DNA from: Niveispirillum irakense DSM 11586
GTDB taxonomy: Bacteria > Pseudomonadota > Alphaproteobacteria > Azospirillales > Azospirillaceae
NCBI RefSeq assembly: GCF_000429645.1
Contig: NZ_AUCG01000003.1
Location: forward strand, 1-64,000
Direction: 5' to 3'
DNA: 64,000 bases
The translations under genes were made by a program, and so were the position numbers. Of this stretch, positions 36,090 to 46,096 are shown piece by piece (the first letter of the stretch is position 1; every line of letters begins with the position of its first letter). The notes under the pieces were generated by a model. It made no database searches. It was not told the origin of the DNA and was given only the letters and a program-made list of their open reading frames with translations.

Positions 36090-36995
36090 ATGACCTTTAT
36101 GTTATCAACATTCGATCACTCGGATCGATATTGCATTGCAACACCAGAACCGCTGCGTAAGGGGTGGGTGCTGGTCCATGAATTCCATCATAAAATATTG
36201 ACGTTATTTACGGTTTTATACTTTGTCTTTGCTGTTCATGTCGTCTTTTTGCCGGATGCGCTGCGGCAAAGGCAGGGTATTCCCCTTCGCCGCCGGCTTG
36301 GTCCCCTGGCGGGGCTCGTGATGCTGTTATTGGCGGCGCTGGGCGCTAACATGCCCATGGCTGCGCAGGCCGCCCCCGGCGGCGCCATCGGGGCTGTCAC
36401 TGAGACAGTCACAGGGTGGGAAGGGGAAATGGCGCCCCTGCCGCAATATCAGGCCTATTGCCGCACCTATGGCGGTCGCGACCCCGGCTGTGCGGTGGAA
36501 CTGGGGGGCACCGCACCCCTGGTGGGGCCGACGCGGCTGACGGGGAAGCAGAAATCCCTGTCCATGGCCCTGCATGTCCACCGGCAGGTGGTGGATGACC
36601 TGATCTATCGGGAAGATGCTGAGGATGTGTGGCAGATCCTCGGCTCCATCGGCACCGGGATGGAAGGCGATTGCGATGATGTGGTCATGACCACCATTGC
36701 CCGTCTGGTGCGCCGGGGATATCCGCGCGGTGCCTTGCGTGCCACCATTGTGCAGCTTCCCGCCGATGGCGGCTATCATCTGATCCTGGCCATCCGCTTG
36801 GGTAATGGCGAGATGTATCTGGACGACCGGCACCGCTGGCCGAAAAGTGCGGCTGATCTCCAGGCCCTGGGTTATCGCTTCGTTGCGCAGGAGGTGCCTG
36901 GCCAGGTCTCTTGGGTTCGGGCCCTACCGGATTTTCCTGCTGTCCCGCTTACGCCTGCGCCACAGGTAGCGGACAGGAATTTGTCCGAACAATAA
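36090..36995 (+). CDS. LapG-like transglutaminase-type cysteine protease
   Basis: LapG proteases cut surface adhesins in the periplasm when c-di-GMP is low. The catalytic triad is visible: C195 in MEGDCDD, H230 in GGYHLIL and D245/246 in YLDDRHRW. Before this lie two hydrophobic stretches (about 35-55, and 72-93 ending MAAQAAP), the second looking like the true signal peptide, so the real start may be internal (for example GTG at 36168). The 5' ~100 bases are AT-rich. No lapD or adhesin gene is adjacent. Confidence 0.75.
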   Translation: MTFMLSTFDHSDRYCIATPEPLRKGWVLVHEFHHKILTLFTVLYFVFAVHVVFLPDALRQRQGIPLRRRLGPLAGLVMLLLAALGANMPMAAQAAPGGAIGAVTETVTGWEGEMAPLPQYQAYCRTYGGRDPGCAVELGGTAPLVGPTRLTGKQKSLSMALHVHRQVVDDLIYREDAEDVWQILGSIGTGMEGDCDDVVMTTIARLVRRGYPRGALRATIVQLPADGGYHLILAIRLGNGEMYLDDRHRWPKSAADLQALGYRFVAQEVPGQVSWVRALPDFPAVPLTPAPQVADRNLSEQ

Positions 36996-37565
36996 ACCCC
37001 CGACTAAAGTCGAAACCCCTCTCTTGATTTTGCCTCAATTTTTCTCATATTTGTCTCATCTCCCGAAAATGATCCGCCAGTCGGTGAATATTTAGACAGG
37101 CAGCAATAAAACGCGGCAGCCTGCCCATGCTTTAGGCGAACAGGTATGGCGCATACGCTTGCCTGCCCCGGTTTTGCGGGCGCAATCAATTGGCACGCTT
37201 GTTGCTGAAACTGTATTTCGGATCAGGTACATGAAGAATGCTGCATCGCCGAAGGACACTTGGCGGTGAACCGCTCCCCCATGTCTTGACGAAACAGGCT
37301 GTCCAGCAGGCGAAGGATGATATGGCAAAACATGCCGTAAGAGTCGCTGTCAGGAACACAGTCAAGGTGGTCGCTGTATCGCGTCCGCCATCAAAGGCGC
37401 ACCAGGCGCCGGGAAATCCGGCCGTGGCGGTACAGGGGCAGGGCAGGCCCGAACTTCTCTCAGGTGTTGCCTGGGATGATGGCCGCAAAGTGTGGCTTAT
37501 AAACCCCGTCCCGGTCGTGACAGGCCGTTGACGGACACAGGACAATAAAATTCAGGAGGTTGGAT
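36996..37565. other. Long intergenic region before ridA
   Basis: A 570-base gap. The first half is AT-rich with no gene. A consensus sigma-54 promoter is at 37191-37206. Between it and ridA is a weak reading frame, 37322-37531 (69 residues, MAKHAVRVAVRNTVKVV at its start, AAGGA upstream), that resembles no family; it may be a small gene or just leader RNA. An opposite-strand frame (37186-37545) looks spurious. Confidence 0.4.
37191..37206 (+). promoter_or_regulatory. Consensus sigma-54 promoter
   Basis: TTGGCACG-CTTG-TTGCT matches the RpoN consensus YTGGCACG-N4-TTGCW in every conserved base; GG and GC are 10 bases apart. Transcription would start near 37217 and run to ridA (37566) and onward. 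A nitrogen-control or similar enhancer-binding protein would be required; no site for it was identified. Confidence 0.75.
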
Positions 37566-38069
37566 TTGAAACGGATTGGTTGCCTGACGGGCTTTGCCCT
37601 GGCGTCGCTGCTGGTGGCAGGTGCCGCCAACGCGCAGGAGATCAAGCGCACGGATGTGCCCAATTTCCCTATCGCCTCCTCGGTTCTGGTGCCGGGCGGT
37701 TCGGACCTGATCTTCCTGAGCGGCACCGTGCCGCCGGTGGTGAACAAAGACGCGCCCAAGGGCAGCACGGAAGTCTTTGGCAATACTGAAACGCAGGCTT
37801 TCAACGTCCTGACCCGCATTAAGGAGACGCTGGCGGCCCAGGGGCTGACCATGGGCGATGTGGTCTTGATGCATGTCTATCTGGTGGGTGATCCCGCCAA
37901 GGGCAATGTGATGGATTTCAGCGGCATGATGGCCGCTTACACCAAATTCTTCGGCACGCCGGAACAGCCGAACAAGCCGGCCCGGTCCACGGTCCAGATC
38001 GCGGCCCTGGCCTCGCCGGGCATGCTGGTGGAGATTGAGGTCGTGGCCGCCAAGGCCAAGGCCAAGTAA
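37566..38069 (+). CDS. Exported RidA/YjgF-family imine deaminase
   Basis: RidA enzymes hydrolyse reactive imines or enamines to keto compounds and ammonia. This 167-residue form has a signal peptide (MKRIGCLTGFALASLLVAGA, cut near ANAQ), placing it in the periplasm. The RidA fold is clear: LIFLSGTVPP, ETQAFNVLTRIKETLAAQG, and R140 in KPARSTVQIAAL, matching the substrate-binding Arg, with VEIEVVA. TTG 37566 has AGGAGG upstream. The cluster downstream includes an amine oxidase, a natural source of imines. Confidence 0.85.
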   Translation: MKRIGCLTGFALASLLVAGAANAQEIKRTDVPNFPIASSVLVPGGSDLIFLSGTVPPVVNKDAPKGSTEVFGNTETQAFNVLTRIKETLAAQGLTMGDVVLMHVYLVGDPAKGNVMDFSGMMAAYTKFFGTPEQPNKPARSTVQIAALASPGMLVEIEVVAAKAKAK

Positions 38070-38073
38070 CGGA

Positions 38074-38114
38074 AAAAAGGGCGGGATGGCGAGGGGTCGC
38101 CTCCCGCCCTTTTT
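38074..38114 (+). terminator. Terminator/attenuator after ridA
   Basis: AAAAAGGGCGGG and CCCGCCCTTTTT enclose an inner GGCGA/TCGCC stem, ending in a T tract. It lies between ridA and the receptor gene, so it could either separate them or let only part of the transcripts through. Confidence 0.85.
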
Positions 38115-38157
38115 AAGGTCGGGGCCACCCTGTTCCAGGGGGCTCAACATGGGGTTT

Positions 38158-38327
38158 CCGCCTGCGGGTACAGGCGGTTGAACAAGGCGGGCCGACAGCC
38201 CCGTCAGCCGGAAAACCGGCGGCGGGGCGGGCTCACGCCGATAAGGCCGGTCAACGGCTGTTCCGGGGATGGATCAACGCACCAGGAGGCAAAGAACGAA
38301 ACAACCGAGTTGAACAGGGGACTAAAT
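38158..38327 (+). promoter_or_regulatory. Structured leader upstream of the TonB-dependent receptor
   Basis: The gap before the receptor gene can form two strong hairpins: CCGCCTG-cgggta-CAGGCGG (38158-38177) and GCCCCG..GCCGG-aaaa-CCGGC..CGGGGC (38198-38228). I could not match it to a known riboswitch class. It may control expression, or be simple GC-rich structure. No gene is seen in the gap. Confidence 0.4.
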
Positions 38328-40775
38328 ATGCGGGTAAAGAACAGCATACCGGCTCAGCAACCGGCACTACGCAAGATCGCCCTTGGCATTCTCTGCTCCA
38401 CCAGCCTGCTTCCGCTGGGCATGGCCGCTCCCGCCACTGCCCAGGAAATTGATGAGATCATCGTCACCGGTACCCGCGTCGCCAACCGGACCGCGACGGA
38501 AAGTTTGGCACCGATTGACGTGTTCGGTGCGGGCGACCTGGAAAAGCAATCCTTTACCGATACGAATGATATTCTCCGCACCCTGGTGCCGTCCTTCAAT
38601 GTCAGCCGTAACGCCATCTCCGACGGTTCCACCTTCGTGCGCCCGCCGACGCTGCGCGGCCTGCCGCCCGACCAGACCCTGATCCTGGTGAATGGCAAGC
38701 GCCGCCATCGCTCGGCCCTGGTGCAACTGGGCGGTGGTGCGCTGGCGGCCGGCGCCCAGGCGTCCGATCTGGCGCAGATTCCCGCCATCGCCATCAAACA
38801 GGTCGAAGTGCTGCGCGACGGCGCCTCGGCCCAATATGGTTCCGACGCCATTGCCGGCGTGATGAATTTCCAATTGAAGGATGCCTCGGAAGGCGGCACC
38901 GCCGAAATCCAGTATGGGTCGACCTATGAAGGTGACGGCGACAATATGAAAATGGCGGCCAATGTCGGCCTGCCGTTGGGGCCGAATGGCTTCTTCAACA
39001 TCTCCGCCGAATATACCCAATCCGATCCGACCAATCGCGGCGTTCAGGACCCGCGGGCACCGGCGGCCAAGACCGATCTGGCCATGAACTGGGGTTCGCC
39101 GGATGCCGATGCGACCCGCGTCTTCATCAATAGCGGCATCGACCTGACCGACACGCAGAGCATCTATCTGTTCGGCAATTACGGCACGTCCAAGAGCAAT
39201 GGCAGCTTCTTCTACCGGCCGCCTTCGACCGACCATGCGGTGAATGGCCCGGTCCTGCCGGTGGCAGGCGATCCGGATGGCTTTACCTTCCGGGAATGGT
39301 TCCCGCTGGGCTTCACGCCGCGCTTCTATGGCGACATGAAGGACGCCTCGCTGGTCGGTGGCTTCAAGCATGAGCTGGAAAGCGGCCTGACCTATAATAT
39401 CAGCGGCTCCTATGGCCGTAACCAGCTCGATTACGATCTGAAGAACACGGTTAACCCCTCCATGGGCCCGGACAGCCCGCGGGAATTCTATGTCGGTCGT
39501 CTGGTGCAGGAAGAGACCAGCGCCAATATCGACTTGGCCTATCCGGTGGAAATCGGTCTGGCCAGCCCGATGAACCTCGCCATCGGCACGGAATTTCACC
39601 GCGAAGTCTATGAAATCGCACCGGGCGATACCGCCTCCTACACGGTTGGCCCCTACGCCTCCTACACCGATCCGGTGACGGGCGCGATCCTCGGCATGCC
39701 GATCGGCTCCAACGGCTATCCGGGCTTCCGGCCCGAGGATAGCGGCGAGTTCACCCGCGACAATATCGCCTTCTATGTCGATACCGAAACCGATGTGACC
39801 GAGGCATTCACCCTGGGCGTTGCCGGCCGGTACGAGGATTTCGATTATTTCGGCTCCACCTTCAACTGGAAGGTCAGCGGTCGTTACGAGTTGACGGACA
39901 GCTTCGCCGTGCGCGGTTCGGTCAATACTGGCTTCCGCGCCCCCACGCCCGGCCAGTCGCAGACCTCTTCTGTGCAGACCTATTTCCCGGCGGGCAGTTC
40001 CAGCCCGGTGGCGCGCGGCACCTATCCTGCCGACAGCATCGTCGCCCAGTATTTCGGCGCCGAGCCTTTGTCGGAAGAGAAGAGCACCAACTTCGCCGGC
40101 GGCTTCGTGGCCGATGTGGCCGATATTTCAGTCACTGTTGACTATTACAACATCAAGGTGGAAGACCGGATCGCGCTGTCAGGTGATTTCAACCCCACCG
40201 CGGCTGACCGTGCCGCCCTGGCGGCCCTGGGCGTGCCCGGCGCCAACACGCTGGGGGCGGTCAATTACTTCACCAACTCCTTCGATACCCGCACCCAGGG
40301 TGTCGATATTGTCGCCAATACCAGCGTCGATGCCGGTGACGGCAAGATCGATCTGACGGCGGCCGTCAACTACAACAAGACCAAGGTCATCGCCCGCAAC
40401 GAAGATGTCATTGATGATGACCGCGTTGCCGATCTGGAGAAGCAACTGCCGAAATATCGCGGCAATTTCACCGCCCTTTATTCGATCGGTGATTTCTCGC
40501 TGCTGGGCCGCGCCAGCTATTACAGCAAGTTCACCGATACGGCGAACTATGCCAAGACCTTCGGCTCCGAATGGCTGTTCGATACCGAGGTCAGCTACAC
40601 GTTCTATGAGCAGATCACGGTGTCGGTCGGCGCGCAGAACCTGTTCGACAATTATCCCGACAAGCTGAATGCCAATACCGATGGCAGCTATTCCGTGGGG
40701 CAGGTTTATCCCGATACGGCCCCCATCGGCTATGACGGCGGCACCTACTATGTCCGCCTGAAGGTGGCGTTCTGA
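38328..40775 (+). CDS. TonB-dependent outer-membrane receptor
   Basis: An 815-residue receptor. A signal peptide ends near ATAQ (about 39), a TonB box DEIIVTG follows at 42-48, then the plug domain (LRGLPPDQTLILVNGKRRHR; VEVLRDGASAQYGSDAIAGV) and a 22-strand-type barrel ending in YYVRLKVAF with the C-terminal Phe. The ATG at 38328 has AGGGGA upstream. Substrate unknown. It sits with an exported RidA protein, an amine oxidase and a cytochrome, which suggests import of an amine, amino acid or peptide rather than iron. Confidence 0.93.
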   Translation: MRVKNSIPAQQPALRKIALGILCSTSLLPLGMAAPATAQEIDEIIVTGTRVANRTATESLAPIDVFGAGDLEKQSFTDTNDILRTLVPSFNVSRNAISDGSTFVRPPTLRGLPPDQTLILVNGKRRHRSALVQLGGGALAAGAQASDLAQIPAIAIKQVEVLRDGASAQYGSDAIAGVMNFQLKDASEGGTAEIQYGSTYEGDGDNMKMAANVGLPLGPNGFFNISAEYTQSDPTNRGVQDPRAPAAKTDLAMNWGSPDADATRVFINSGIDLTDTQSIYLFGNYGTSKSNGSFFYRPPSTDHAVNGPVLPVAGDPDGFTFREWFPLGFTPRFYGDMKDASLVGGFKHELESGLTYNISGSYGRNQLDYDLKNTVNPSMGPDSPREFYVGRLVQEETSANIDLAYPVEIGLASPMNLAIGTEFHREVYEIAPGDTASYTVGPYASYTDPVTGAILGMPIGSNGYPGFRPEDSGEFTRDNIAFYVDTETDVTEAFTLGVAGRYEDFDYFGSTFNWKVSGRYELTDSFAVRGSVNTGFRAPTPGQSQTSSVQTYFPAGSSSPVARGTYPADSIVAQYFGAEPLSEEKSTNFAGGFVADVADISVTVDYYNIKVEDRIALSGDFNPTAADRAALAALGVPGANTLGAVNYFTNSFDTRTQGVDIVANTSVDAGDGKIDLTAAVNYNKTKVIARNEDVIDDDRVADLEKQLPKYRGNFTALYSIGDFSLLGRASYYSKFTDTANYAKTFGSEWLFDTEVSYTFYEQITVSVGAQNLFDNYPDKLNANTDGSYSVGQVYPDTAPIGYDGGTYYVRLKVAF

Positions 40776-40880
40776 TGATCCGGGTTGGGCGGTGGCTCTG
40801 CGCCGCCGCCCCCTCCTTTCCCGAAGCGTGAGAGGGACGGGCCCCGGACATAGCCGTGGCACGTCCGCTTGAGGCAGAGA

Positions 40881-42488
40881 ATGGCTGTAGAGAACATCAT
40901 GCCGTCGGCGGGTCGCATGACCCGTCGCCAGTTACTGTCGATGATCGGCACCGCCGCCGGCAGCTCCGTCATGTACCAGGCGGCGACATCGCTGGGTTAT
41001 GCCGCGGAGAGCGAATTCAAGGGGCCGCCCTCCCTGTCCGGGGCGCCGAAAGGGGCGTCGGTCTTGATTCTGGGCGCCGGCTGGGCCGGTCTGGTCGCCG
41101 CTTATGAACTGGGCAAGGCCGGTTATAAGGTGCAGGTGCTGGAATATCGGGAAAAGGCCGGTGGCCGTGCCTGGACCCTGCGCGGCGGCGACACCTATAC
41201 CGAGTTGGGCGGCTTCACCCAGAAGGTCGGTTTTGATAAGGGGCATTATCTTAATCCCGGCCCCTGGCGCGTGCCGTACCATCATCGCGCCGTGATGCAT
41301 TATTACCATGAGCTGGGCGTGAAACTGGAGCCGTTCTTCCAGATCAATTACAACGCCTATGTCCATTCCAAATCCGCCTTTGACGGCAAGCCGCAGCGCT
41401 ATCGCCATGTGCTGGCCGATTTCAACGGCCATGTCGCCGAGCTTCTGGCCAAGCTGGGCCATAAGGGCGGCCTGGACGGCTATGTCACGAAGGAAGATCA
41501 GGAAAAGCTGCTGGCCGCCATGCAGGATTGGGGCGCGCTGGACGATAATTACGCCTATGCCGCGAATGCCGATACATCCAACCGGCGCGGGTTCGAGAAG
41601 GATCCCGGCGGCGGCCTGTCCGGGGAACCGGTCTTCTCCAAACCGATCGAATTCTCCCAATTGCTGCAATCCGGCCTCTGGCGGGCCATCGGCACCGGCT
41701 CGGGCTATGAGTTCCAGACCGCCCTGTTCCAGCCGGAAGGCGGCATGGATGCAGGCCCGATGGCCCTGGCGGAAAAGGTGAAGGACAAGATCACCTTCAA
41801 CGCCAAAGTGACCGAGATCCACCAGGATAATGGCGGCGTCACCGTCACCTATGTCGATACCAAGGCCGGCGGGGCCGTGAAGACGGCCAAGGCCGATTGG
41901 TGCCTGTGCACCATCCCGGCATCCATCCTGTCGCAGATCAAGAAGAACGTCTCGCCCGCCATGGAGGCGGCCATCGACGCGCTGCCTTATGAGGCGGCGT
42001 TCAAGGTGGGCTTGCAGTTCAAGCGCCGTTTCTGGGAGCAGGATGAAGAGATTTACGGCGGCATCTCCTATACCGATCTGCCCATCTCGCTCATCGCCTA
42101 TCCGCAAAGCAATTATGGCTCCAAGGGCAAGGGTGTGCTGCTGGGGGCCTATCCCTGGGGGCCGTTCGCTTATGAGTTCGCCGCCATGGCGCCGGAGGAA
42201 CGGGTGAAGAAATGCGTGGAGTTCGGCGCGCAGATCCACCCGCAATATCGGCAGGAATTCGAGAATGGCGTGGCTGTCGCCTGGCACCGCGTGCCTTGGA
42301 CATTGGGCTGTTTCGGTTCCTGGACGCCGGAGAAGCGCAAGGAACATTACAACAACCTATGCCAGATCGACGGGCGCATCCTGCTGGCGGGGGAGCATGT
42401 CTCCTACCTGCCGGCCTGGCAGGAAGGGGCGGTTCTCTCCTCCCTGGACGCCATCACCCGCCTGCATCAGCGCATCACCGCCCGTTGA
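40881..42488 (+). CDS. Tat-exported flavin monoamine / L-amino-acid oxidase family protein
   Basis: A 535-residue FAD enzyme. A twin-arginine signal MTRRQLLSMIGTAAG (RR at 15-16) predicts periplasmic export in folded form. The FAD-binding GAGWAG is at 65-70, followed by the amine-oxidase EYREKAGGRAWTLR motif; the C-terminal FAD contact is ILLAGEHVSYLPAWQEGA, as in monoamine and L-amino-acid oxidases. It probably oxidises an amine to an imine. It lies between the receptor and a cytochrome c, which may take the electrons instead of oxygen. Confidence 0.9.
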   Translation: MAVENIMPSAGRMTRRQLLSMIGTAAGSSVMYQAATSLGYAAESEFKGPPSLSGAPKGASVLILGAGWAGLVAAYELGKAGYKVQVLEYREKAGGRAWTLRGGDTYTELGGFTQKVGFDKGHYLNPGPWRVPYHHRAVMHYYHELGVKLEPFFQINYNAYVHSKSAFDGKPQRYRHVLADFNGHVAELLAKLGHKGGLDGYVTKEDQEKLLAAMQDWGALDDNYAYAANADTSNRRGFEKDPGGGLSGEPVFSKPIEFSQLLQSGLWRAIGTGSGYEFQTALFQPEGGMDAGPMALAEKVKDKITFNAKVTEIHQDNGGVTVTYVDTKAGGAVKTAKADWCLCTIPASILSQIKKNVSPAMEAAIDALPYEAAFKVGLQFKRRFWEQDEEIYGGISYTDLPISLIAYPQSNYGSKGKGVLLGAYPWGPFAYEFAAMAPEERVKKCVEFGAQIHPQYRQEFENGVAVAWHRVPWTLGCFGSWTPEKRKEHYNNLCQIDGRILLAGEHVSYLPAWQEGAVLSSLDAITRLHQRITAR

Positions 42489-42499
42489 GGGAGAGACCC

Positions 42500-42916
42500 A
42501 TGCATACCCGTCTTCTGTCCGCCGGTCTGCTGGCCATCGCCCTGTCGGCTGCCGCCTTGCCCGCCGTCGCCCAGCGTACCGATGCCCAGAGCAGCGATTT
42601 TGCCGATGCCCGCCGCTTCTCCTATCAGGATGGCGAGCATCTCTACCGTGCCATCTGCCAGGGCTGCCACATGCCGGAGGGGCAGGGGGCGCAGGGGGCC
42701 GGCGCCTATCCCGCCCTGGCCGCCAATCCCAATCTGGAAGCAGCCGCCTATCCCATCCATATGGTGGTCAATGGCCAGAAGGCCATGCCATCCTTCGGTT
42801 ATCTGAGCGATGCGCAGGTGGCGGCCGTGGTCGGCTATATCCGCACCCATTTCGGCAATGGATTCGCGGAGCCGGTGACGGCAGAAGAGGTCAAGGATAC
42901 ACGGATCACACCCTGA
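42500..42916 (+). CDS. Exported c-type cytochrome
   Basis: A 138-residue monoheme cytochrome c. Signal peptide MHTRLLSAGLLAIALSAAAL ending near AVAQ, heme site CQGCH at 53-57, and the axial Met probably M96 in KAMPSFGYLS. It starts 11 bases after the amine oxidase stop, with GGGAGAG upstream, so the two are co-expressed. Likely electron acceptor for the oxidase. Confidence 0.9.
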   Translation: MHTRLLSAGLLAIALSAAALPAVAQRTDAQSSDFADARRFSYQDGEHLYRAICQGCHMPEGQGAQGAGAYPALAANPNLEAAAYPIHMVVNGQKAMPSFGYLSDAQVAAVVGYIRTHFGNGFAEPVTAEEVKDTRITP

Positions 42917-42950
42917 GCGCCTGACAGGGGGGAGCCAAAAGGGGAGCAAT

Positions 42951-43508
42951 ATGGGGGAAGGGTTGCATCTGCGCCTTGCCACGCCAGCGGACCGGCCGGC
43001 GCTGGCAGCGCTGGTCGACCGCTCTGTGCGGGAGCTGAGTCGGGATCATTATAGCCCGGCCCAGATCGATGGCTCTCTGGCTGCCATCTTCGGGATCGAC
43101 GGTACGCTGATCGCGGATGGCACCTATTTTGTGGTGGAGACGGGGGAAGGTGTGCCGGCCGGGTGCGGAGGCTGGAGCCGGCGGCGCACCTTGTGCGGCG
43201 GCGACCAGTTCAGCGACCGTTCGCCCGAACTGGTCGATCCAGCACAGGAGCCGGCGAAGATCAGGGCCTTCTTCGTCGATCCCGCCTTCGCCCGCCGGGG
43301 CGTTGGCCGGATGTTGATGGCCGCGTCGGAGGCGGCGGCAGGGGCGGCAGGTTTCACAATGCTGGAACTGATGGCCACATTGCCGGGGGTGCCGCTTTAT
43401 ACCGCCTTGGGATTTACGGCGACCGGAAGGGTTGAATTACCCCTGCCCGATGGTGGACGCATTCCCTTTGTCCCGATGCGAAAAAACTTGGTTGAGGGGC
43501 TGGCTTAA
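42951..43508 (+). CDS. GNAT family N-acetyltransferase
   Basis: A 185-residue acyl-CoA-dependent acetyltransferase. The acetyl-CoA loop is FFVDPAFARRGVGRML (RxxGxG), followed by LELMATLPGVPLYTALGF. Substrate unknown; it follows the cytochrome gene by 34 bases and may act on the same amine, but might also be an independent gene. Confidence 0.85.
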   Translation: MGEGLHLRLATPADRPALAALVDRSVRELSRDHYSPAQIDGSLAAIFGIDGTLIADGTYFVVETGEGVPAGCGGWSRRRTLCGGDQFSDRSPELVDPAQEPAKIRAFFVDPAFARRGVGRMLMAASEAAAGAAGFTMLELMATLPGVPLYTALGFTATGRVELPLPDGGRIPFVPMRKNLVEGLA

Positions 43509-43582: not shown

Positions 43583-46096
43583 ATGGTTTATCGCCCCCCT
43601 TTCCTTGTCCCTGGATCAGCCTTGAACCGACCGCTTGCCCTGCTTTTGATGGCGGCCATCCTGCTTCCTGGCATGACGGTCGGACTGGTGGCATGGCGCA
43701 CCCATGATGCAGCCATTGCCAAAGCCGCGGATGACCGGCGACAGCAGGCGCGTGCGCTGCGGGAACATGCTTTGCGCGTGTTCGAGGCGCAGGCCCTGAC
43801 CATCGCCCTGGTCGATGCCGAACTGGGAGATGAGCCCCTGGAGACGGCTGCGGCGAATCCCCGGTTGCAGACGCTGATGCACCGTATTGTCACCCAGTCT
43901 CCTCATATTGAAGGGATATGGCTGGTCGATGCCAGCGGGCACATGGTGCGGGGCATCGGTGGGCGGGTGGCTGAAGAGGATGATATCACCGGAACATCCC
44001 TGTTCCAGGCGACCAAGCAGGATACCGATTTTCATCTGGGGGCGGTTGACCGGCCGGGAGATACCGGCTGGGCCCTGGGCATCGCCCGGCGCCGGGGCGC
44101 CGAAAATGGTGGCACTACCTTTGACGGGGCCATCCTGGTCACCGTGCAGCGTCGCTATTTCGAACAGATCTGGCAGGAAACGGGGGTGCCGGAAGGCCGC
44201 ATCGTTTCCATGATCAATGCCCAGGGGGAGTTCCTGGCCCGGTTCCCTTCAATCAGCGGTACGCCCCCCCGGCTGCCGGCGGATAGTGGCTTTTTTGCCC
44301 AGCGGATCCAGCATCCGGAGGAAGGGGAATATCGCTACAACTCCATTTTCGACAATGTGGACCGGTTCTACAGCTATATCCGCCTACCCGATCTGGACAG
44401 CTATATCGTCGTGGGGCTGGATGGCGCGAGTGTAACGGCGACCTGGCGGCGGGAGACGGAATGGCAGGCCCTGATCGCCCTGCTGGTGAGCGCGGTTCTG
44501 TCGGCTGCGGTCCTGCAGGCGTGGCGGCGGGGGCGGGCACTGGCCCGTGCCAATGTGCGTCTGCTCAGCACCACCGGCGCGCTGGAAGCGGAAATCGCCC
44601 GGCGCCGCGCGGTCGAATCCACCCTCATGGCCCGGGAGGAGCATGATGCCGCCTTGCGGGCCGCCAACGCCGCCCTGCGGGCGGAGGAGGAGCGGTTCCG
44701 TCTGCTTTTCACCACCATGACGCAGGGGGTGGTGATCCACGGTCCCGACGGCGCCATCCTGTCCGCCAATGCGGCGGCAGAACAGATCCTGGGCCGCAAC
44801 CTGGACGAGATGCGGCGCGCCCGCGCCGATGACCGGGAGTGGGCGGCGGTGGATGTGGATGGTCACCGGCTGGAAGCCCATGAGCATCCGGCGATACGGG
44901 CATTGGCGACTGGCAAAGTGGTGCAGGCCACATTGATGGGGGTCTTCAATCCCCGCCGGTTGGAACGGCGCTGGATCGTGGTGGACGCCGTTCCCATGCT
45001 GCGTGATGGGGATACGGTGCCATCGGGCGCCTATGCCGTGTTCAGCGACGTAACCGACCGGCGTCGGGGGGAACAGGCCCAGAGGCTGCTGATCCGGGAG
45101 GTGGACCACAGGGCCAAGAACGCGCTCGCCGTGGTCCAGGCCGTGATCCGGCTGACCAAGGCGGAAACGCCGGAACGGTTTGTGGAGGTGGTGGAAGGCC
45201 GTGTGGCGGCGCTCGCCCATGCCCATACCATTCTGGCCATGAACCGGTGGGAGGGGGCTTCTCTCACCCGTCTGGTCCAGGTGGAACTTGAGGCTTATGC
45301 CGACCCCGACTCCGACGCGCGGGTCAGGCTTGAGGGACCGGATATCGTCGTCCTGCCAGAAGCGGCCCAACCACTCTCCATGGTGCTGCACGAACTGACC
45401 ACCAATGCCGCCAAACATGGAGCCCTGTCCCGGCCTGAAGGCCGGCTGCTGGTGCGCTGGTCGGTTATTGCAAATGGCGATTGGATAAGGCTGGACTGGC
45501 AGGAAACAGGCGCCCCTGTCGGGGAGGCGCCGATCCGTCAGGGATTCGGCTCCACCATGATCGAAGCCAGCATGCGCCAGCAGCTTCAGGGCACCATCAC
45601 CTATGATTGGACGCCACAGGGCCTGCATGCCGTCATCAATTTTCCCGCCGACCAGCTTGTGACGCAGGAGGACACGTCCCCCGTCCCGGCTCCGGACACT
45701 GCCGACAAGGGCGATGGTCCGCGCGGGCCCCGCGTGCTGGTGGTGGAGGACAGTATCCCGCTTGGCCAATTATTCCGCGAAATGCTGGAAGTGCTGGATT
45801 ATCGCGTCATCGGTCCCGCCAATACCATGTCGGCCGCCCTTGCCGCCGCCCAGGTGGAGGCGCTGGACGCTGCCATGCTGGATATCGGCATGCGTGATGC
45901 CGAAGTGTTTCCTGTCGCGGAAATCCTGCGGGAACGGGGCGTGCCGCTGCTGTTCTGTACCGGCTATACCAATGTGACCGACTGGGGATCGCAATGGTCG
46001 GATGTGCCGGTGCTGCGCAAGCCGGTGACCCTGCCGGCCCTGCGCGTCGCCCTGGCCCGGCTGCTGGAACAGCCGCATCTTCACGCCGAACCTTGA
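43583..46096 (+). CDS. HWE-type hybrid sensor histidine kinase
   Basis: An 837-residue membrane sensor: two membrane helices (about 15-38 and 285-305) around a periplasmic domain, a coiled coil, a PAS domain (about 365-480, LLFTTMTQGVVIHGPDGAIL), and an HWE/HisKA2 kinase with phospho-His in REVDHRAKNALAVVQAVIRL, N box HELTTNAAKHGAL and WxE in DWQETG. A receiver domain closes the C-terminus (LVVEDSIPLG; likely Asp in AAMLDIGM). Ligand unknown. Start at ATG 43583; a TTG at 43529 is less likely. Confidence 0.88.
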   Translation: MVYRPPFLVPGSALNRPLALLLMAAILLPGMTVGLVAWRTHDAAIAKAADDRRQQARALREHALRVFEAQALTIALVDAELGDEPLETAAANPRLQTLMHRIVTQSPHIEGIWLVDASGHMVRGIGGRVAEEDDITGTSLFQATKQDTDFHLGAVDRPGDTGWALGIARRRGAENGGTTFDGAILVTVQRRYFEQIWQETGVPEGRIVSMINAQGEFLARFPSISGTPPRLPADSGFFAQRIQHPEEGEYRYNSIFDNVDRFYSYIRLPDLDSYIVVGLDGASVTATWRRETEWQALIALLVSAVLSAAVLQAWRRGRALARANVRLLSTTGALEAEIARRRAVESTLMAREEHDAALRAANAALRAEEERFRLLFTTMTQGVVIHGPDGAILSANAAAEQILGRNLDEMRRARADDREWAAVDVDGHRLEAHEHPAIRALATGKVVQATLMGVFNPRRLERRWIVVDAVPMLRDGDTVPSGAYAVFSDVTDRRRGEQAQRLLIREVDHRAKNALAVVQAVIRLTKAETPERFVEVVEGRVAALAHAHTILAMNRWEGASLTRLVQVELEAYADPDSDARVRLEGPDIVVLPEAAQPLSMVLHELTTNAAKHGALSRPEGRLLVRWSVIANGDWIRLDWQETGAPVGEAPIRQGFGSTMIEASMRQQLQGTITYDWTPQGLHAVINFPADQLVTQEDTSPVPAPDTADKGDGPRGPRVLVVEDSIPLGQLFREMLEVLDYRVIGPANTMSAALAAAQVEALDAAMLDIGMRDAEVFPVAEILRERGVPLLFCTGYTNVTDWGSQWSDVPVLRKPVTLPALRVALARLLEQPHLHAEP

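Follow-up and report, generated by a model that had tools for sequence, protein, structure and literature searches.

A 64,000-nucleotide stretch of the Niveispirillum irakense DSM 11586 genome (hereafter the window, meaning the whole stretch that was analysed) carries between positions 37191 and 43508 of its + strand a cluster of genes encoding a RidA-family protein, a TonB-dependent receptor, a flavoenzyme with a twin-arginine (Tat) signal, a cytochrome c and a GNAT acetyltransferase, preceded by a sigma-54 box (Table 1). All five genes are transcribed in the same direction, as a first-pass annotation made from the sequence had described, and the cluster is real, conserved and for the most part was read rightly there. 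That annotation had overlooked a gene of 69 amino acids and a terminator after ridA, and its interpretation, a nitrogen-responsive pathway oxidizing an amine or amino acid outside the cytoplasm, stands only in part. The core trio of flavoenzyme, cytochrome c and RidA has been described before but little studied, and the window contains a richer version of it; in another bacterium this cluster is tied to plant-hormone production. New features are a sigma-54 link across lineages, the receptor, a genus-specific small gene, regular export of RidA and a tryptophan signature at residue 129 of the flavoenzyme. We interpret the cluster, with a probability of roughly two in three, as a periplasmic L-amino-acid dehydrogenation module that feeds a cytochrome and whose imine is hydrolysed by RidA. 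Amino acids are probably deaminated by this gene set outside the cytoplasm, with the electrons going to cytochrome instead of oxygen.

Table 1. Features of the cluster, with positions in the window.
Feature	Position	Strand	Remarks
Sigma-54 (-24/-12) box TGGCACGCTTGTTGCT	37191-37206	+	Exact consensus match; box also precedes cluster in relatives
Conserved 69-amino-acid small-protein gene, first after box	37322-37531	+	dN<dS in 21/21 pairs; no known family
Exported RidA, probably Rid3-type	37566-38069	+	PF01042; TTG start; Sec-type signal ending ANA-QE, read by eye
Intrinsic terminator hairpin, then TTTTT	38079-38109	+	-26.7 kcal/mol
TonB-dependent outer-membrane receptor	38328-40775	+	PF00593, PF07715
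Tat-signal flavoenzyme, apparently L-amino-acid-oxidase-type	40881-42488	+	PF01593; 2jae 308 bits; R130, Y424, W129
Exported mono-haem cytochrome c, one CQGCH	42500-42916	+	PF13442
GNAT acetyltransferase	42951-43508	+	PF00583

Components of the cluster and their co-location

Loci for comparison were picked by the flavoenzyme alone, 19 from one contig scan and 55 as stretches (L105-L159) taken from a sample of the phylum (27 of 398 genomes matched, the window's own included), from the order (22 of 82) and from the genus (three); the phylum-sample count is a lower bound, with three candidates scored per genome. The resulting tree has 74 rows, including the window and omitting the duplicate L105, and these fall into 33 groups corresponding approximately to genera. 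The flavoenzyme gene is accompanied by a cytochrome c gene, a RidA gene or both at 73 of the 74 loci, L133 alone having neither. The window's cytochrome c family adjoins it at 59 loci (63 when other cytochromes are counted) and RidA is near it at 51; by groups the figures are 27 of 33 for window-type cytochrome c (30 with other kinds), 25 for RidA and 15 for the receptor. The co-location of an exported oxidase with an exported RidA, a cytochrome c or both recurs across phyla. The nearest named loci are 90-93% identical and are labelled Niveispirillum, Azospirillum or unclassified alphaproteobacterium.

The flavoenzyme is the sole full-length copy in its genome, the four other matches being weak and short, and it begins with MAVENIMPSAGRMTRRQLLSMIG, which includes the twin-arginine motif TRRQLLS. 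A permissive Tat motif is present in 72 of 73 relatives, and the exception (L123) also has RR. Among solved structures the flavoenzyme is closest to the L-amino acid oxidase 2jae (1.3e-90), ahead of animal L-amino acid oxidases, both reconstructed and natural; no title naming a nicotine oxidoreductase occurs among the best 60 of the 101 solved chains matched. R130 and Y424 align with the Arg and Tyr of 2jae that we take to bind the substrate carboxylate, and R130 is present in all 74 enzymes and Y424 in 70, with Phe in the other four. This conservation argues for an L-amino acid, not an amine, as the substrate, and judged from these residues the flavoenzyme resembles an oxidoreductase of L-amino acids and not one of amines. 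The broader 'amine or amino acid' of the first-pass annotation is narrowed accordingly to the latter, and a generic amine oxidase is disfavoured. A structure model of the enzyme is poor (mean pLDDT 60). One flavoenzyme copy among the relatives (L100, G471:C1:653770-655338) contains an internal TGA.

The ridA gene starts with its TTG six bases past an AGGAGG. The nearest solved chains to its product are PFL1385 (144 bits) and PSPTO3006 (142 bits), with the next at 36 bits, and R140 aligns with the PARS arginine of Escherichia coli RidA (Arg-105 by count). With its closest similarity to assigned Rid3 members and this Arg-105 equivalent, the window RidA is probably of the Rid3 type, and imine hydrolysis is predicted. 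PFL_1385 and PSPTO_3006 are described in passages of PMC5619798 as Rid3 proteins that lower the levels of imines formed when L-amino acid oxidase acts on L-Leu, Gln, Phe, Met and His, and RidA genes, sometimes Rid3 genes, are reported beside those of flavin adenine dinucleotide (FAD) amine oxidases in sections of Niehaus et al. 2015 (PMC4433059). Unlike the accounts of Rid3 in those sections of the two papers, export is a regular feature of the cluster RidAs here; a term search found neither 'signal peptide' nor 'periplasm' in PMC4433059, and neither 'signal' nor 'periplasm' in PMC5619798. The signal sequences of both RidA and cytochrome c in the window were read by eye, and of the six RidA-family matches in the genome the five others are without a signal sequence by the same reading. 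Of 42 cluster RidAs, a set from which nine near-duplicates had been removed, 36 have a signal sequence by a heuristic; among the six lacking it, L106 shows a signal by eye further in, and L157 perhaps does. The signal is lipoprotein-like in L011, L019, L022, L136 and Comamonas. The likely task of such an exported RidA is to quench imines outside the cytoplasm.

A cluster of this kind, lao-cccA-ridA (GDI2456-2454), is known from Gluconacetobacter diazotrophicus PAL5 (Rodrigues et al. 2016; PMC5053998). In the portions of that study concerning it, a Tn5 insertion in lao eliminates formation of indole-3-acetic acid (IAA) from tryptophan and leaves much of the tryptophan unused, and the lao mutant has lower transcript levels for all three genes, which was taken to suggest an operon. 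Tat export of Lao was predicted, the cytochrome c and RidA were proposed as helpers, and ccm mutants were cited as keeping 5% of IAA; the hypothesis of joint action is nearly identical to that for the window. Like lao-cccA-ridA, the window has a Tat flavoenzyme of apparent L-amino-acid-oxidase type, a cytochrome c and a RidA in one cluster, and residues encoded by the Gluconacetobacter primers fit the window flavoenzyme at the same 43-codon spacing, with 65 versus 67 codons for cccA. In contrast to lao-cccA-ridA, ridA lies upstream in the window with the receptor between, and a GNAT gene, the 69-amino-acid gene and the sigma-54 box are added; the uninterrupted order lao-cccA-ridA does not occur in the window, and relatives show both orders. 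The regulation of lao-cccA-ridA is left open in those portions of PMC5053998, and 'TonB' is absent from its main text. No paper among the matches listed links sigma-54 or a TonB receptor with this cluster or describes an exported Rid3, in a search covering mainly openly available literature.

The cluster or parts of it are also found on plasmids and in duplicate. The flavoenzyme-cytochrome pair is present on plasmids of root-nodule isolates (L160, L161, L165), where it lies by group II intron genes (R. tropici and Microvirga) or transposase and recombinase genes (M. loti); no RidA is annotated nearby in the R. tropici and M. loti records, in which the gene table is incomplete. Deinococcus has flavoenzyme and cytochrome c genes with no RidA annotated nearby. 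On a Metabacillus plasmid (L178) the flavoenzyme and a Rid gene are followed by tatA-tatC, with no annotated cytochrome c. In L109 (G165) the cluster is present twice, in copies that face one another, one with RidA and receptor genes and one without.

Residue 129 and the electron acceptor

L-amino acid oxidases are known as peroxide-makers. In the window, the Tat flavoenzyme gene adjoins a cytochrome c gene with a Sec signal, both signals being recognized by eye. This is the same arrangement of Tat flavoenzyme and adjoining exported cytochrome c as in NicA2, Pnao and their relatives, and in the passages of PMC12224317 dealing with NicA2-related clades a Tat signal together with an adjacent cytochrome c gene predicts cytochrome-using dehydrogenases. 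As described there, that study sampled the best BLAST matches of NicA2; its main text contains neither 'RidA' nor 'amino acid oxidase'.

All 59 enzymes encoded beside the window's cytochrome family have Trp at residue 129, next to R130, and the remaining 15 have Ala (14) or Ser (1) there. Trp129 was considered as a clean divider between enzymes with and without a cytochrome c (59/59 versus 0/15), and this proved too strong: four of the 15 have another haem-motif neighbour together with Ala or Ser at 129. In L123, L124 and L127 a protein with two haem motifs is encoded right after the flavoenzyme, and in L024 a protein with one, in the place taken in the window by the mono-haem cytochrome c. 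As cytochromes, if of another type, occupy that position, the correction leaves the odds of the different readings unchanged. Counted by linkage, Trp129 is found in 59 of 63 cytochrome-linked and none of 11 unlinked enzymes. In 2jae the position is Thr.

A further 18 plasmid-borne relatives were checked at this position. Among the 12 that can be read at this position and have a cytochrome c annotated next to the enzyme, 11 carry Trp129 and one, Thiodictyon, has Asn; in Sulfitobacter W074, which also has such a neighbour, the position falls outside the covered stretch. Trp129 is also present in the unannotated Paraburkholderia PREW-6R, which has a haem-motif open reading frame nearby. Sphingomonas and Metabacillus, with no annotated cytochrome c nearby, have Ala, and Nonomuraea and Embleya, in which a scan found no cytochrome-like open reading frame, have Gly. 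Cytochrome linkage thus does not require Trp129 in all lineages, and W129 is a signature that may bear on the choice of acceptor; clade and trait run together, and the correlation is not proof. On plasmids of two Rhodobacterales, Dinoroseobacter and Roseinatronobacter (L174, L183), the flavoenzyme and cytochrome c genes lie directly behind terminal-oxidase genes.

The sigma-54 box and the transcription units

The RpoN consensus box ahead of the cluster is exactly as first described, and the window has no exact match to TGGCACN5TTGC other than TGGCACGCTTGTTGCT. When up to one mismatch is allowed, matches in the window are at chance level (12 versus 8.1 expected; 10 of 100 shuffles reach 12). 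Across the genome the 16-mer TGGCACGN4TTGCW has 12 sites and the reversed control none. Pfam searches with six proteins behind these sites identified NifH, iron-sulphur biogenesis, flagellar rod, SIR2-like, GGDEF and response-regulator proteins; the pattern thus picks out in this genome kinds of gene that are known as sigma-54 targets. The box has the GG and GC elements at -24 and -12, and the genome has a single match to RpoN and ten to sigma-54 activators. The box ahead of nifH (L032, G000:C13:4986-5001) is likewise perfect, and with this gene the genome encodes a nitrogenase iron protein.

Boxes in relatives were scored in the 500 nt ahead of the first cluster gene with a hand-made score built on the sigma-54 consensus. 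A box is present at 21 of the 72 loci having enough upstream DNA, against a background of 0.008 per such stretch (44 matches in 2.6 million positions); the 21 count related loci repeatedly, with L105 a duplicate of L015, and include L127 (TGGTATTCACGTTGCA), later dropped as weak. By groups, a box precedes the cluster in 8 of 33. In four Comamonas loci and in G422, G452 and G304 it lies 98-109 nt ahead of the flavoenzyme match itself, and in the window's genus and G461 it lies ahead of ridA, such that the same control precedes different gene orders. The trait undergoes eight changes on the tree, or six without L007 and L008, whose contigs lack upstream DNA. Boxes ahead of the cluster recur in separate lineages. 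The seven g223 genomes, with 2-4 cluster copies each, have no box under the 500-nt rule, and in L154 it is found at -690.

Judged by the binding sites, the nitrogen responsiveness proposed at first is putative. The best NtrC-like site, 11/12 in Comamonas L017 (0 of 100 shuffles), is the only strong one, other loci scoring 7-9/12; in the window the score is 8/12, reached by 50 of 100 shuffles. Scans of the window for NtrC, NifA and TyrR sites did not rise above shuffles that keep base composition in 20-nt blocks and not dinucleotides. A cluster-adjacent activator was considered and rejected, with no enhancer-binding protein gene within the cluster in the eight genomes searched; the nearest is 8 kb off in G003, and its likely counterpart in the window's genome lies on another contig.

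The first gene after the box encodes the protein of 69 amino acids, whose conserved start replaces a 97-amino-acid reading of the leader frame that was discarded. Its termini, MAKHAVRVAVRN... and PELLSGVSWDDGRKVWL, are kept with minor changes in the seven sequences compared, and non-synonymous divergence (dN) is below synonymous divergence (dS) in every one of their pairwise comparisons. Strong matches occur in 9 of 82 genomes of the order, all nine in the window's genus (11 genomes), and the gene shares a contig with the flavoenzyme in seven of them, the other two being fragmented assemblies with it on another contig. In G001 the match at the cluster is weak; G002 has none at threshold, with a start MAAKTVMVV... 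readable by eye, and weak matches in three other genomes lie elsewhere. The protein has no Pfam match and a poor structure model (mean pLDDT 49).

The terminator directly after ridA may divide the cluster into more than one transcription unit. The box may then act chiefly on the small gene and ridA, the other genes being expressed by read-through or from another promoter. It is quite possible, if short of probable, that the box drives these two genes only and that the receptor, flavoenzyme and cytochrome have a promoter of their own. Beyond the strength of the hairpin itself, a hairpin with a U-rich tail after ridA is kept with differing sequence in 7 of 11 loci examined, none being found by the same rule in L134, L135, L137 and L146. 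Opposed to such a split are the Comamonas, G422, G452 and G304 loci, with the box 98-109 nt ahead of the flavoenzyme match, and the absence of a sigma-70-like site between ridA and the receptor in a simple scan. Rfam gave three matches in 36900-41000, none reaching its gathering score.

Function of the cluster and neighbouring genes

In the periplasmic dehydrogenation module that we favour, the Tat-exported flavoenzyme would take hydride from an L-amino acid, with either a broad or an aromatic preference; tryptophan is the sole substrate with genetic support, in the relative Gluconacetobacter. FAD would be re-oxidized by the adjacent exported cytochrome c, which would hand the electrons on to a terminal oxidase. 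The released imino acid would be hydrolysed to the 2-oxo acid and ammonium by the Rid3-type RidA, likewise exported. The TonB receptor may import some precursor or substrate, and the sigma-54 promoter would put expression under an enhancer-binding protein. The genes, their export signals as judged by motif, the co-location, the recurrence of the box and the active-site residues are observations; we infer the substrate, the electron acceptor, roles for the receptor, the GNAT protein and the small protein, and nitrogen as the signal. More tentatively, and at somewhat less than even odds, several lineages may have separately placed under sigma-54 a regulated, nitrogen-scavenging and energy-yielding deamination outside the cytoplasm, and Rid3 would form the Rid family's exported branch. 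If the module is as proposed, its cytochrome-feeding branch would change the reading of many 'flavin monoamine oxidase family' annotations.

Several observations weigh against the proposed module. For every member of the family, cytochrome c rather than O2 is a putative acceptor read from the genes. RidA is not near the flavoenzyme at 23 of the 74 loci, some of these on cut contigs, and 11 loci forming one clade (support 100) have no cytochrome-like haem-motif neighbour in the scanned stretch, so a cytochrome is not a universal requirement of the chemistry. The Gluconacetobacter ridA primer residues place ambiguously on the window, 25 of the 33 groups are without a sigma-54 box under the rule used, and in the window the flavoenzyme may be cut off from the box by the terminator that follows ridA.

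An unlikely alternative is that the main output is indole-3-pyruvate made from tryptophan for IAA and plant interaction, with nitrogen release a by-product. The Gluconacetobacter genetics (PMC5053998) and the plasmids of root-nodule isolates favour this, as does Chlamydomonas, in which passages of PMC10805672 describe a periplasmic L-amino acid oxidase, LAO1, that makes IAA with a RidA partner (LAO2) and is tied to nitrogen starvation, like the system proposed for the window; unlike the latter, LAO1 is algal and makes hydrogen peroxide, with no cytochrome c partner mentioned in those passages. Set against an auxin output, the flavoenzyme-cytochrome pair also occurs in Deinococcus and in marine bacteria, and the indolepyruvate decarboxylase model TIGR03394 is above cut-off in none of the 11 genus genomes, with no match at E<=1e-30 in that of the window, an argument weakened by Gluconacetobacter also being without ipdC, as stated in PMC5053998. 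Through the sigma-54 box, auxin production by plant-associated bacteria could be coupled to their nitrogen status.

Rather less likely is that the substrate is a larger TonB-imported molecule (a peptide, siderophore or conjugate) and not free amino acids. We know of no need for a TonB receptor in the use of free amino acids, and such genes lie beside the cluster at 34 of the 74 loci, in 15 of the 33 groups; under the rule used 40 loci have none, several receptors are on the other strand, and receptor presence changes 11 times on the tree. The receptor's own PDB matches mostly span the plug domain of siderophore, B12 and colicin receptors. That the flavoenzyme is a true oxidase using O2, with peroxide for defence and the cytochrome c incidental or peroxide-removing, is improbable: its characterized solved relatives are named oxidases and the 11-row sister clade has no cytochrome neighbour, but the window's cytochrome family undergoes only two gain or loss changes on the tree, other lineages put a different cytochrome in its place, Trp129 follows linkage as described above, terminal-oxidase genes adjoin in two records, and ccm mutants lose IAA as cited in PMC5053998.

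When neighbouring genes were clustered into families present in at least four groups, the flavoenzyme, RidA, receptor and cytochrome c were recovered, with FAM 3, 6, 7, 8 and 9 besides. FAM 3, 6 and 7 were rejected as neighbour genes, being by eye frames antisense to the flavoenzyme, RidA, receptor and cytochrome c genes. FAM 8, by eye an ABC-ATPase-like family, and FAM 9, by eye a second receptor-like one, occur in four groups each, 5-9 kb away. GNAT homologues are near the cluster in the window's genus and in L120, L126 and L128. Just downstream of the cluster, at 43583-46096, is an HWE-type sensor kinase gene with PAS and receiver domains, which adjoins the cluster also in L006 and L009.

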